Assembly: GCF_014279775.1 (NCBI RefSeq)
Contig: NZ_CP047961.1
Location: 248,001-312,000, forward strand
Origin: Synechococcus sp. PROS-9-1
GTDB taxonomy: Bacteria; Cyanobacteriota; Cyanobacteriia; PCC-6307; Cyanobiaceae
DNA: 64,000 bases
Reading direction: 5' to 3'
A program made the translations under genes and the position numbers. The notes under the pieces are model-generated. The model was not told the DNA's origin. It saw only the letters and a program-made list of their open reading frames with translations, and did not search any database. Shown here piece after piece: positions 20,003 to 26,665 of this stretch. Numbering within the stretch: position 1 is the first letter of the stretch; every line of letters begins with the position of its first letter.

Positions 20003-20563
20003 ATGGCCCCGCTGCCCGCGCCTGAGCCCTCCATGTGTTTGGAGACCCTCGAGACCATGGATGCGCGCAAGATTCGTTTCGAGCGCAATCGCATCCGCTT
20101 GCCGATGGGGGTGGAAGGAACGTTTGGAATCATTCGCCACCCCGGGGCTTCATTGGCGGTTCCGATCAACGCTGACGGCCAGGTGGTGATTTTGCGCCAA
20201 TACCGTTTTGCAGTGCAGGCACGTCTCCTTGAGTTTCCAGCGGGCACCCTTGAAGAGGGTGAAGATCCTTTGGAATCGATGCAGCGCGAGCTTGGGGAAG
20301 AAGCTGGATACAGCGCTGCTCGTTGGGATTCGCTCGGACCGATGTTGCCTTGTCCTGGCTACTCGGACGAAGTGATTCATTGCTTTCTGGCGCGGGACCT
20401 CACGCGTTTGGAGCATCCACCTGCTGGCGATGACGATGAGGATCTTGAGGTGATCCTGATGAGTCCGTCCGAACTGGATGCCCGCCTTGCGTCCGGTGAT
20501 GAGTGGCTGGATGGCAAAAGCGTCACCGCCTGGTTCCGTGCCAAGCAACTGCTGGGTCTCTGA
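20003..20563 (+). CDS. NUDIX hydrolase, ADP-ribose pyrophosphatase type
   Basis: A 186-aa hydrolase of nucleoside-diphosphate-linked compounds. The Nudix box is complete: G81, E87, then REL-GEEAG at 95-102. The fold and the ROYR-type segment (ILRQYRFAVQARLLEFPAG) resemble ADP-ribose/ADP-sugar pyrophosphatases such as NudF. The start at ATG 20003 is likely but ATG 20033 or 20057 are possible. The stop TGA shares its last base with the photolyase ATG (TGATG), implying translational coupling of nucleotide clean-up and DNA repair genes. Confidence 0.88.
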   Translation: MAPLPAPEPSMCLETLETMDARKIRFERNRIRLPMGVEGTFGIIRHPGASLAVPINADGQVVILRQYRFAVQARLLEFPAGTLEEGEDPLESMQRELGEEAGYSAARWDSLGPMLPCPGYSDEVIHCFLARDLTRLEHPPAGDDDEDLEVILMSPSELDARLASGDEWLDGKSVTAWFRAKQLLGL

Positions 20564-22041
20564 TGGCAGCGTCTCGCGTTCTGTTTTGGCATCGCCGCGA
20601 CCTGCGCTTGGCCGACAATCTCGGTCTGCAGGCGGCTGTGGAGATCAGCCCTGCGGTGACGGGCGTGTATGTGCTGGATCCAGCGCTGATCCACCCTCCT
20701 GAGTCGTTGCCACCCATGGCTCCGGCCCGCCTTTGGTTCTTGGTGGAAACCCTGCGCGAACTCCAGCAGCGTTGGAGTGAAGCTGGGAGTCGTTTGCTTG
20801 TGGTGGCTGGCGACCCGGTGCAGGTGTTGCCGCGATTGGCGTCGCTGCTGGAGGTGCCGGCGGTGGTGTGGAGCCGTGATGTTGAGCCTTATGCACGGGA
20901 ACGCGACCGTCAGGTGGCCAAAGCCCTGCAAGCTGATGGGCGCAAGGTTTTGGTGGACTGGGATCAGCTGCTGCTGGCACCAGATCTGATCAAAACAGGC
21001 GGTGGTGATCCTTATCGGGTCTATGGCCCCTTTCTGCGCAATTGGCGCGGACAGGTGGAGCGCAGTGCACCAACCACTGTGGACGCTCCCATGGCCTTGA
21101 TCGATTTGGAGGCCGAGACGCTGGTGGCTGTCAGTGGCGGTGAGGGCTCTCTCGGCCGCTTGTGCGCTGAGGGTCAGCGGCAGCTGGAGCAGCTGCAGGT
21201 TGAGCATGGTTTTCATGGCGTGGATCTCTGCCCAAGCCGCCCAGGAGAGGCCGCGGCTGCTGAGCAGTTGGCCACCTTTGCGGACGGAGCATTGCTGGCC
21301 TATGAACCCGATCGCAATTTTCCTGGGATGCCAGGAACCTCTTATCTCAGTGCGGGCCTGAGTGTGGGTACGGTCAGTCCTCGTCAGGCCTGGTGTGCTG
21401 CCCAAGGCGCCAAGGAGATCGCCCGCAGCGATGAGCAACGGCAGGCAATCACGGTGTGGGAACAGGAACTCTGCTGGCGTGAGTTTTACCAGCAGGCCTT
21501 GTTTCATTTCCCTGAGCTAGTGGATGGTCCTTACCGAGAGCAGTGGCGGCGTTTCCCTTGGGAGAACAACAACGACTGGTTTGATGCTTGGCAGGAAGGA
21601 CAAACGGGGATGCCGATCATCGATGCAGCGATGCGACAGCTCAACCAAAGCGGCTGGATGCACAACCGTTGCCGCATGATCGTGGCCTCCTTTCTTGTGA
21701 AGGATTTGATCTGTGATTGGCGTTGGGGCGAGCGTGCCTTCATGGAGCTGGAGGTGGATGGAGATTTGGCCGCCAATAACGGCGGCTGGCAATGGAGTGC
21801 CAGCAGTGGCATGGATCCCAAGCCTTTGCGGATCTTCAATCCGGCCACTCAGGCTTCAAAATTTGACGCCGAAGGCGAGTACATCCGCGAATGGGTGCCT
21901 GAATTGCGGCACGTGAACACCAAGGATTTAATCAGTGGTGAGATCGCTGCTTTAGAGCGCAGGGGGTATCCGGAGCTGCTGATTAATCATAAGGTGCAGC
22001 AGGCCAAGTTCAAAGCCCTTTACGCCACCATCCGCTCTTGA
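20563..22041 (+). CDS. phrA: Deoxyribodipyrimidine photolyase (class I CPD type)
   Basis: A 492-aa light-driven enzyme that splits UV-induced pyrimidine dimers. The N-terminal antenna domain starts VLFWHRRDLRLADNLGL. The FAD-binding half has the family pattern TGMPIIDAAMRQL, GWMHNRCRM and DLAANNGGWQWSASSG; the NGGWQW sequence is of class I CPD photolyases. ATG 20563 overlaps the NUDIX stop by 1 nt; upstream in-frame codons belong to the NUDIX gene. The end overlaps the convergent aminotransferase by 22 bp. It is distinct from the split photolyase pair at 24.4-25.8 kb. Confidence 0.95.
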   Translation: MAASRVLFWHRRDLRLADNLGLQAAVEISPAVTGVYVLDPALIHPPESLPPMAPARLWFLVETLRELQQRWSEAGSRLLVVAGDPVQVLPRLASLLEVPAVVWSRDVEPYARERDRQVAKALQADGRKVLVDWDQLLLAPDLIKTGGGDPYRVYGPFLRNWRGQVERSAPTTVDAPMALIDLEAETLVAVSGGEGSLGRLCAEGQRQLEQLQVEHGFHGVDLCPSRPGEAAAAEQLATFADGALLAYEPDRNFPGMPGTSYLSAGLSVGTVSPRQAWCAAQGAKEIARSDEQRQAITVWEQELCWREFYQQALFHFPELVDGPYREQWRRFPWENNNDWFDAWQEGQTGMPIIDAAMRQLNQSGWMHNRCRMIVASFLVKDLICDWRWGERAFMELEVDGDLAANNGGWQWSASSGMDPKPLRIFNPATQASKFDAEGEYIREWVPELRHVNTKDLISGEIAALERRGYPELLINHKVQQAKFKALYATIRS

Positions 22042-23933: not shown

Positions 23934-24437
23934 ATGGTGCGGCTGCTGACAATGGTGGTCATGGCAGGACTATTGAGCGCCTGTGCGCAGAAGAAAGCAA
24001 CCACCTGGAAAGTCTTTCCCCTGCAACGCAATACTCCCCATGACGGACTTGCTGTCGTCAGTCAACCCGATGGTTATGGGGTTCATCTCTACTTGGAAAC
24101 CGAGACCAGCGATCCAGGCGTGTGTTCGCCCCGCTGGCTTCCAGACTCGGCGCGATTATTCAATGGCAACGGCAGTGCTCCGTTTAGTTCGGGATTGGCG
24201 CCCCGCTCAGAGTTCCTTTCAGCAGTAAATCGGAGAGACGTTCGCAACACCTTGAAGCAAGAGCTCGAGGCGCTGTGCAAGCTCCGAGCTCCCAAGGCGC
24301 GTTGGCAATGGCTGGAACCACCGTTGAATCCATCAGAGCTGACGCCTGTGAGCCTTCCTGCCTTGGAACATCCAGACCTTCTCACCGATCCTGTTGAGGA
24401 ACAAGAGCGCGAGGACAAGCTTTTGAAGGAGGACTAA
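23934..24437 (+). CDS. Hypothetical lipoprotein
   Basis: A 167-aa protein with a short signal peptide MVRLLTMVVMAGLLSAC whose LSAC is a lipobox, so it should be lipid-anchored at Cys17. The mature part contains two further Cys (VCSP, LCKL) and no domain I recognise. ATG 23934 is preceded by AGGG at 23921-23924. An alternative ATG at 23907 would give a longer n-region. It is divergent from the redoxin gene and its 3' end overlaps the convergent split-photolyase gene by 4 bp. Confidence 0.7.
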   Translation: MVRLLTMVVMAGLLSACAQKKATTWKVFPLQRNTPHDGLAVVSQPDGYGVHLYLETETSDPGVCSPRWLPDSARLFNGNGSAPFSSGLAPRSEFLSAVNRRDVRNTLKQELEALCKLRAPKARWQWLEPPLNPSELTPVSLPALEHPDLLTDPVEEQEREDKLLKED

Positions 24438-24862
24438 AACCCCTCCCAGACCACAGGTTCTGCCTCCCTCCAATAGCGGCTAAAGCGCCCCAGCCGTGGT
24501 GATTTGGCTAACTCGACAAAGGGATCCGGATCGAGCATCCAGAGGGGAAGTTCTCGATCAATGGCCGCAGCGATGCGTTGGAGACGGGGATCCACTGCGG
24601 TGCTGGTGACTACAGCATCAGCTCCGTGGCGTTGCGCAAAACGCAGCACTTCAGCCGCTACATCGCCTCGCCTGAGGGTGAGCGGAAGGCTCAAGGCGGA
24701 TTCGTACAAAAAGCCGATGCGTTTGCGGCTGATGGCCTGGTCTTGAATCCAGGCGTCGTCGAACACGAACAGACCTGGTGCGCTGGGATAGTCCTGAAGA
24801 GCAGGATTGGCTGGTCCCAGGGCTTCTTCATGCACCCAAAGGATTGGTTTGCGTGGGTCCAT
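24434..24862 (-). CDS. Stand-alone photolyase/cryptochrome N-terminal (alpha/beta antenna-like) domain protein
   Basis: A 142-aa protein that looks like the Rossmann-like N-terminal domain of photolyases without any FAD domain. PILWVHEEALGPANPAL corresponds to the usual first strand and R-D-L-R...NPAL segment, though the Arg residues are replaced. LFVFDD and RIGFLYESALSLPLTLRRGD match the next strand and helix, and HGADAVVTSTAVDP the following one. ATG 24862 shares one nt with the stop of the FAD-domain gene upstream (TGATG), so the two are translationally coupled in reversed domain order. Binding of an antenna chromophore is unproven. Confidence 0.72.
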   Translation of the reverse strand: MDPRKPILWVHEEALGPANPALQDYPSAPGLFVFDDAWIQDQAISRKRIGFLYESALSLPLTLRRGDVAAEVLRFAQRHGADAVVTSTAVDPRLQRIAAAIDRELPLWMLDPDPFVELAKSPRLGRFSRYWREAEPVVWEGF

Positions 24863-25773
24863 CAAAATCGCTGGGTACTGGGCCGTGAGCTGGGGCGGGA
24901 TGAGCGACGCGCTGTCCCCTCACGGATGGCTGGCTGAACCTTGAACAGCTGTTGTTCCAACTGCTCGTAACTGCGATCAAAGGGACAGGATTTGTTGCTT
25001 GGACAGTCCTGGCAATACAACCCGTTGCTGTAGCGCTCCAGGTTTTGGCGATTAAAGAAATAGGGCTTGTGACTGAAGCTGCTGGCCACCCACTGCCAGC
25101 TGAGGTGGTTGCTGGCGGGGTCGCCATCCAGTAGGTGCTCCAGGAACCAGTCAGCCCCCGCACGCCAGTGCACCCGTCTCCAGTGCACGAGATAGGCCGC
25201 CATCCACATCCGCGCGTGGTTATGCAGCCATCCATGGGTAACTAGTTCGTTCCTGAAGCCGTCCATGCAGGCAAGTTGTGTTTGTCCTTCCCGGATGTCA
25301 TCGGGGAGATCCTGCTGATACTCACTGGCGTCATGGCCGGTTTTGTGATCTTCCTGATCGTCATAAACACGATCGCCGAGATCAAGCCACATCCGCTGCC
25401 AGAAATCGCGCCATCCCAGCTCATTGATCAGTTTTCCGCCGTCGTTCCTTGCTTGGTTGTTCTGTTTCAGCTGTGAGAAGACGGCATCTCGCACTTCCGC
25501 GAGCGTGAGAATTCCGTGGCGGATGTAGGGCGAGAGGCGTGTGACCGAGCCGTTGAGGTGGTTGCGACTGCGGCCGTAGCGCTTGGCATCTATCGCACTC
25601 AGTTGCCATTCAGCAGCGGCTCGACCGCCTGCGATCGGACTGAGCTCCCCGGATGCGGTTGGAAACTCTTGCGCTAACAAGGAATTCAGCGCCGAGCGCT
25701 CGTGAAGATCTCGGGGCAGATCTGTGGATTCGCTCGGCCAACTGAGCGGCGCAACGTGCGGCAGCCTGGACAC
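24862..25773 (-). CDS. FAD-binding photolyase/cryptochrome domain protein with four-Cys iron-sulfur-like pattern
   Basis: A 303-aa protein holding only the helical FAD domain. Seen: RLSPYIRHGILT, ELGWRDFWQRMW, GWLHNHARMWMAAYLVHW and DPASNHLSWQWVASSF, all in the order found in photolyases. Cys169 (TQLACMDG), Cys254 and Cys257 (YCQDC) and Cys263 (SCPFD) fall where the [4Fe-4S] ligands lie in FeS-type bacterial cryptochromes/photolyases; the tail SHKPYFF...YCxxC...CPF is strikingly similar to that group as recalled. The start is a GTG at 25773. The Arg/Ser/Pro-rich last 20 residues are probably disordered. The antenna-like domain follows as a separate gene. Confidence 0.82.
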   Translation of the reverse strand: MSRLPHVAPLSWPSESTDLPRDLHERSALNSLLAQEFPTASGELSPIAGGRAAAEWQLSAIDAKRYGRSRNHLNGSVTRLSPYIRHGILTLAEVRDAVFSQLKQNNQARNDGGKLINELGWRDFWQRMWLDLGDRVYDDQEDHKTGHDASEYQQDLPDDIREGQTQLACMDGFRNELVTHGWLHNHARMWMAAYLVHWRRVHWRAGADWFLEHLLDGDPASNHLSWQWVASSFSHKPYFFNRQNLERYSNGLYCQDCPSNKSCPFDRSYEQLEQQLFKVQPAIREGTARRSSRPSSRPSTQRF

Positions 25774-25882
25774 CGGGGCATGTCAAAAAAATGCAACACC
25801 ATGCTGACGATGTGTCGTTGTGAGCGTGAGTGGCCCGGCATGGGACAGAATCGCTCGAATAACCACTCCGGGGTGCGGCCTG

Positions 25883-26665
25883 ATGCTTCTTGATCTCACT
25901 GGTAAGAAGATCCTTGTTACTGGCATCGCCAACAACCGCTCCATTGCCTGGGGCATCGCGCAACAGCTCAAGGCGGCTGGAGCCGAGCTTGGGATCACCT
26001 ATCTGCCTGATGAGAAGGGTCGATTTGAAACCAAGGTTCGTGAGCTCACGGCTCCGTTAGAGCCGTCGTTGTTTTTGCCTCTCAATGTTCAGGATGCCGC
26101 TCAGATGGAGACGGTGTTCGCTGAAATCAAAGACAAGTGGGGGCAGCTTGATGGCCTCGTGCACTGTTTGGCTTTTGCGGGGAAAGAAGAACTGGTGGGC
26201 GACTTCAGTGCCACCACGGCTGAGGGTTTTGCCCGTGCTTTAGAGATCAGCGCCTATTCCCTTGCTCCTCTTTGCCGTCACGCCAAGCCGTTGTTCAGCG
26301 AGAAAGCGGGTGTGGTGACCTTGACCTACCTCGGCGCTGAGCGAGCGATCCCTAACTACAACGTGATGGGTGTGGCCAAGGCGGCGCTGGAAGCCTCCGT
26401 TCGCTATCTCTCCGCTGAGCTTGGGCCCGAAAAGCAGGTGCGAGTGAATGCGATCAGTGCTGGCCCGATCCGCACGCTGGCGAGTTCTGCGATCGGAGGG
26501 ATCCTCGACATGATCCACAACGTGGAGGAGAAGGCACCACTGCGCCGTACGGTCACTCAAAACGAAGTAGGGAACACTGCGGCGTTCCTGCTCAGTGATT
26601 TGTCGAGTGGCATTTCTGGCCAAACCATTTATGTGGATGCTGGTTATTGCATCAACGGCATGTGA
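25883..26665 (+). CDS. fabI: Enoyl-[acyl-carrier-protein] reductase (NADH)
   Basis: A 260-aa SDR-type enzyme for the last reduction in each cycle of fatty-acid elongation. Seen: LVTGIANNRSIAWGIAQ (cofactor loop of FabI), LVHCLAFAGK, the YNVMGVAKAALE stretch with the active-site Tyr/Lys, and AGPIRTLASSAIGG. ATG 25883 gives the family N-terminus MLLDLTGKK. It is 109 bp from the divergent FAD-domain gene. Normally complete, no anomalies. Confidence 0.95.
   Translation: MLLDLTGKKILVTGIANNRSIAWGIAQQLKAAGAELGITYLPDEKGRFETKVRELTAPLEPSLFLPLNVQDAAQMETVFAEIKDKWGQLDGLVHCLAFAGKEELVGDFSATTAEGFARALEISAYSLAPLCRHAKPLFSEKAGVVTLTYLGAERAIPNYNVMGVAKAALEASVRYLSAELGPEKQVRVNAISAGPIRTLASSAIGGILDMIHNVEEKAPLRRTVTQNEVGNTAAFLLSDLSSGISGQTIYVDAGYCINGM

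Follow-up and report, generated by a model that had tools for sequence, protein, structure and literature searches.

The phr4 and phr5 genes of Synechococcus sp. PROS-9-1 very likely encode two subunits of one photolyase, a catalytic subunit that holds FAD and an antenna-type subunit made as a protein of its own. They lie in the window, the 64,000-nucleotide stretch of DNA analysed here. What was seen in support of this reading are the parts and their folds, the co-inheritance of the two genes, their encoding in trans and the conservation of four cysteines. The locus and its architecture are not new, because Haney et al. 2022 (PMC9426592) have described the same pair, named phr4/phr5, in all marine Synechococcus they examined. 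The original prediction was therefore mistaken in regarding a split FeS-type enzyme as a novelty. The present analysis adds evidence for two subunits in trans, a near-invariant cysteine set and doubt about the (6-4) specificity assigned earlier.

Organization of the locus

Both genes are on the minus strand. phr4 occupies positions 24862-25773 and codes for 303 amino acids from a GTG start, and phr5 occupies positions 24434-24862 and codes for 142 amino acids from an ATG start at 24862. They meet in the sequence TGATG (24860-24864, minus strand), where the stop and start codons share one A, giving an overlap of 1 nt. Phr4 matches the Pfam family PF03441 (FAD_binding_7, E=2.2e-21) and has no antenna domain, while Phr5 matches PF00875 (DNA_photolyase, E=2.7e-5) and has no FAD domain. 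The Phr5 match scores 24.6 bits, 2 bits short of the curated cut-off of 26.6; the family is matched at E<=0.01 by nine of 14 Phr5 homologues. The homologues of phr4 in near relatives are 88-91% identical.

A complete canonical photolyase gene is located nearby at 20503-22041 on the plus strand (TIGR03556, E=7e-191) and is of the class I/8-HDF type according to the model that it matches. The original prediction was thus correct about this gene, about the two overlapping minus-strand frames and about their reversed order, with one domain in each. An ORF judged by eye to be NUDIX-like overlaps the start of the canonical gene (together 20003-22041, plus strand), an arrangement that resembles the nudix-photolyase operon of Prochlorococcus MED4 as cited in PMC9649867. 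On the other side, a fabI-like enoyl-ACP reductase gene diverges from phr4. The promoter scan found no sigma-70-like promoter in the gap between them (25774-25883), and the scan for promoters and terminators was uninformative.

Structure of Phr5

The AlphaFold model of Phr5 has a pLDDT of 88.5 and a pTM of 0.78. When it was searched with Foldseek, photolyase antenna domains ranked first, with Usp folds behind. The best match in the PDB was 2j07, a Thermus photolyase with an 8-HDF antenna (E=1.3e-5). By its predicted fold, Phr5 is a photolyase antenna-type alpha/beta (Rossmann-like) domain, in agreement with the expectation that the small protein would be antenna-like. A sequence-only search of the PDB with Phr5 gave nothing significant, and a fold search was needed.

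In Synechococcus sp. HJ21-Hayes the two domains are fused naturally (L164). With a pLDDT of 90.5 and a pTM of 0.90, the model of this fusion is in keeping with a definite arrangement of the FAD and antenna-type domains against each other. Its FAD half is matched best by class I photolyases; PhrB is also matched.

An 8-HDF antenna on Phr5 is unlikely, because CofH (FO synthase) has no match at E<=1e-3 in the PROS-9-1 genome. CofG has only a sub-threshold match of 35 bits there. Phr5 may be only structural. PROS-9-1 may thus not make 8-HDF, the chromophore that PMC9426592 takes Phr3 of a related strain to use.

Cysteines and the putative iron-sulfur cluster

Phr4 has cysteines at residues 169, 254, 257 and 263, where the original prediction placed them. 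Their codons lie on the minus strand at 25267-25269, 25012-25014, 25003-25005 and 24985-24987, respectively. The same cysteines were named in strain RS9916 in PMC9426592, and the numbering is identical in the two proteins. In a profile-profile alignment (hhalign) the four columns fall on the FeS ligands of PhrB (5kcm; C350, C438, C441 and C454, respectively) and of three other FeS-BCPs. When every cysteine was masked, C169 and C263 still aligned, and the CxxC pair shifted by four columns at a gap. Phr4 homologues retain all four cysteines in 220 cases. Alignment and conservation thus agree with the proposed correspondence to the [4Fe-4S] positions of PhrB, and Phr4 probably holds a structural [4Fe-4S] cluster. 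The last spacing, which had appeared short relative to PhrB, varies among homologues: between the CxxC pair and the last cysteine there are usually five residues and up to 13, which explains the initial doubt.

The exceptions to the cysteine set are two broken or truncated sequences (L107 and L150), two intact ones (L151 and L152) and the Prochlorococcus Phr7s, which are also intact. In L151 (genome G505) phr4 and phr5 are both intact and the full set is missing, which makes this pair a natural FeS-free version. L152 (genome G324) is a single ORF in which a Phr4-like FAD domain without the cysteines is followed by a C-terminal domain of another kind, with FSQFWEVA at its end. This ending is reminiscent of the RFSRYW motif of Phr5, but the hhalign match is weak (E=0.006, probability 6%). 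L152 may stand between Phr4/5 and NewPHL as an intermediate.

Active site and substrate

An Asn/Met pair is typical of CPD photolyases and a His/His pair of eukaryotic (6-4) enzymes. This rule fits the PDB titles "H365N" and "H369M", given to mutants of the Drosophila (6-4) photolyase. In the A. nidulans CPD photolyase (1owl) the residues aligned with E118, N185 and M189 of Phr4 are the same, E, N and M, whereas their counterparts in PhrB are Q, H and L. These residues are well conserved: N185, W121, W226 and W228 are present in 221 of 221 sequences, E118 in 216 and M189 in 206. To judge from these residues, Phr4/Phr5 is likely, though far from certain, to be specific for CPDs.

Haney et al. 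inferred a (6-4) photolyase from the FeS cysteines, which indeed occupy the PhrB positions, and from a phenotype confined to UV-C. In their experiments knocking out phr4 lowered survival after UV-C 20-30 fold, and disrupting it had no effect after UV-B (PMC9426592). A two-subunit (6-4) photolyase would differ from the present reading in its substrate only. It is nevertheless rather unlikely, given the CPD-type residues at the active site, the sequence of Phr4, which is nearest to class I/DASH, and the tree in PMC9426592, which places Phr4 beside Phr7/NewPHL, a single-strand CPD photolyase. Specificity for CPDs appears the better supported of the two, as far as sequence can tell.

The lack of an effect after UV-B also counts against a two-subunit photolyase as such. 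The protection that the phr4/phr5 region gives E. coli against UV-C, which is equal in light and dark (PMC9426592), counts against a simple photolyase. Such light-independent protection would suit a light sensor or an FeS redox sensor of the cryptochrome kind, and an FeS-type cryptochrome, CryB (3zxs), does exist. However, over 97% of homologues retain the active-site Glu and Asn and the tryptophans that would sandwich the substrate, and the UV-C sensitivity of the knock-out points to repair. A sensor is improbable.

One protein or two

Whether the locus yields one frameshifted protein or two proteins was left open in PMC9426592, where a +1 shift was raised as a possibility. An even set of 386 cyanobacterial genomes was surveyed for the two genes. 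A relative of phr4 was found in 82 genomes and phr5 in 83; both were found in 81 and neither in 302 (Fisher p=4e-80, a statistic that ignores shared ancestry). The small protein thus accompanies the FAD protein in 81 of the 82 phr4 genomes, and the concern that the two might never co-occur is removed. Together with the four cysteines kept in 220 homologues, this shows that the pattern did not arise by chance. The exceptions are G324, with the one-ORF relative that has another C-terminal domain, G045, where phr5 sits at the end of a contig, and G625, whose phr5 is broken. One genome has a second, partial phr4-phr5 copy (G548:C1:293232-293917).

The genes need not be neighbours. Outside the family to which the window belongs there are 55 pairs, of which 32 are adjacent and 12 share a contig at distances of 25 kb to 4.9 Mb, eight of these with the genes on opposite strands. 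In the other 11 the genes fall on separate contigs, in assemblies made up of several. Since unlinked phr4 and phr5 remain co-inherited, the two proteins appear to act together. Of the 129 loci that contain both parts, 99 are split and 30 are single-ORF fusions that begin with the FAD half. In the split loci phr5 starts between -7 and +1623 nt from the phr4 stop, apart from two outliers, one at -47 and one, in a broken gene, at -128. Relative to phr4, phr5 is in frame 2 in 57 loci, in frame 0 in 26 and in frame 1 in 16. A tree of 153 Phr4 domains, made by a quick method, requires four changes between the fused and split states. The fusions occur only inside the family of the window, nested among split outgroups, which makes the split the apparent ancestral state, as far as such a tree can show.

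These observations bear on programmed ribosomal frameshifting at the phr4 stop, which would produce a single chain of reversed order like Phr6. The tight overlap of the two genes, seen in the window and in near relatives, and the existence of natural fusions at 30 loci are in its favor. However, phr5 of the window is in the -1 (=+2) frame of phr4, so that the proposed +1 slip, at the TTTT before the stop, would not enter phr5. The use of all three frames, the gaps of up to +1623 nt, the 12 distant pairs on one contig and the nested position of the fusions show that frameshift fusion is not the general mechanism, and in the window it is very improbable. Some homologues have extra TGA stops inside their matches. 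Recoding at these stops was considered and rejected: at the loci that were read, such as L014, L016 and L018, the stops fall where a shorter phr4 terminates.

Relatives of Phr4 with 51-60% identity also occur in records labelled Chloroflexota and Acidobacteriota and in one Tatlockia MAG. Six of these eight non-cyanobacterial records have phr5 just downstream of phr4, and the remaining two break off at a contig end no more than 160 nt from the phr4 stop. Because all are metagenome bins, binning errors are possible. No relative of Phr4 was confirmed on viral contigs; phage records gave only weak photolyase matches, under 31% identity, none of them covering 80% of the query. That the split ORFs with their 1-nt overlap are a decayed photolyase gene has a negligible probability, because simple breakage of a normal photolyase cannot reverse the domain order, both ORFs are conserved in Cyanobacteria and in the Chloroflexota and Acidobacteriota records, and the phr4 knock-out has a phenotype (PMC9426592).

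Proposed mechanism

For a two-subunit photolyase we infer a physical complex, translational coupling, the FeS cluster, an antenna pigment and CPD specificity. Phr4 would be the catalytic subunit holding FAD, and Phr5, made as its own protein, would dock onto it and complete the photolyase fold. The TGATG overlap would couple translation of the two genes in this genome by termination and reinitiation; elsewhere the genes are either unlinked or joined in a single fusion led by the FAD half. Both genes show UV and diurnal induction (PMC9426592). After UV exposure, blue light would excite the reduced flavin, either directly or by way of a pigment on Phr5. An electron would then pass to a pyrimidine dimer and split it, CPDs being the likelier substrate.

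Comparison with other photolyases

The pair in the window is that of Haney et al. 2022: the FAD-only ORF comes first, the cysteines are at the same positions and a canonical phr3 is nearby. The fixed phr4/phr5 spacing of seven base pairs reported in PMC9426592 differs from the survey, in which the spacing varies, all frames are used and some pairs are unlinked. The substrate assignments also differ, (6-4) in that study and CPD as suggested here by the active-site residues. On the question left by that study, the survey indicates that two separate proteins are the norm and a frameshift fusion is not. Phr6, the one-gene form described there in two Cyanobium strains (NS01 and PCC 7001), has the same reversed order and the same cysteines but, unlike the pair in the window, is a single gene.

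PhrB, a prokaryotic (6-4) photolyase of the FeS-BCP group, has its four cysteines in the same places as Phr4. It differs in having a PF04244 N-terminal domain in the same chain, a family matched by neither Phr4 nor Phr5, and in its Q/HH active-site residues, which in Phr4 are replaced by E118, H184-N185 and M189. The PF04244 gene of this genome is located elsewhere. The genome's PhrB-type photolyase, Phr2 (L032:682-2088; G000:C1, about 1077600), lacks the FeS cysteines and adjoins a uvrC-like ORF, in line with reports on marine Synechococcus.

NewPHL/Phr7 is the nearest relative of Phr4 in the PMC9426592 tree and shares with it the FAD half in first position and the HN..RM active site. It is one gene, however, with a C-terminal Z-domain in the same chain and without the FeS cysteine set. 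No homology was detected between Phr5 and the Z-domain of Prochlorococcus Phr7 (hhalign E=0.42), although the small profile makes this weak evidence. In class I CPD photolyases the antenna domain is N-terminal and fused ahead of the FAD domain, which is not so in Phr4/Phr5.

Phr4 probably belongs to the "short photolyase-like" (SPL) class. An SPL gene, SephrC, is counted in S. elongatus in PMC9178010. Genome G334 encodes a class I photolyase with 95% identity to a fragment of 1OWL (A. nidulans photolyase), and its phr4 is followed by phr5 3 nt downstream. Like Phr4, members of the class have an FAD domain without a fused alpha/beta domain. The class was reportedly described by Xu et al. in 2021 as having no antenna domain; some members are said to have the four cysteines, and a Rhodococcus member that was tested is said to have an FeS cluster and to repair CPDs. 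Short photolyase-like proteins have reportedly been put forward as the ancestors, with one domain only, from which all photolyases and cryptochromes descend. It is conceivable, at somewhat less than even chances, that each is the catalytic subunit of a photolyase that obligatorily consists of two proteins, with the antenna subunit Phr5 encoded separately and often megabases away, that the split is older and the fusions came later, and that the FeS cluster serves a CPD enzyme and not a (6-4) enzyme. Phr5 would be the missing antenna domain of the class, supplied in trans. Such a partner makes possible a test of photolyase origins, namely whether docking preceded gene fusion. The results suggest an antenna-type partner in trans for proteins that had been described as antenna-less: among cyanobacterial genomes with phr4, nearly all carry the antenna domain as a gene of its own.
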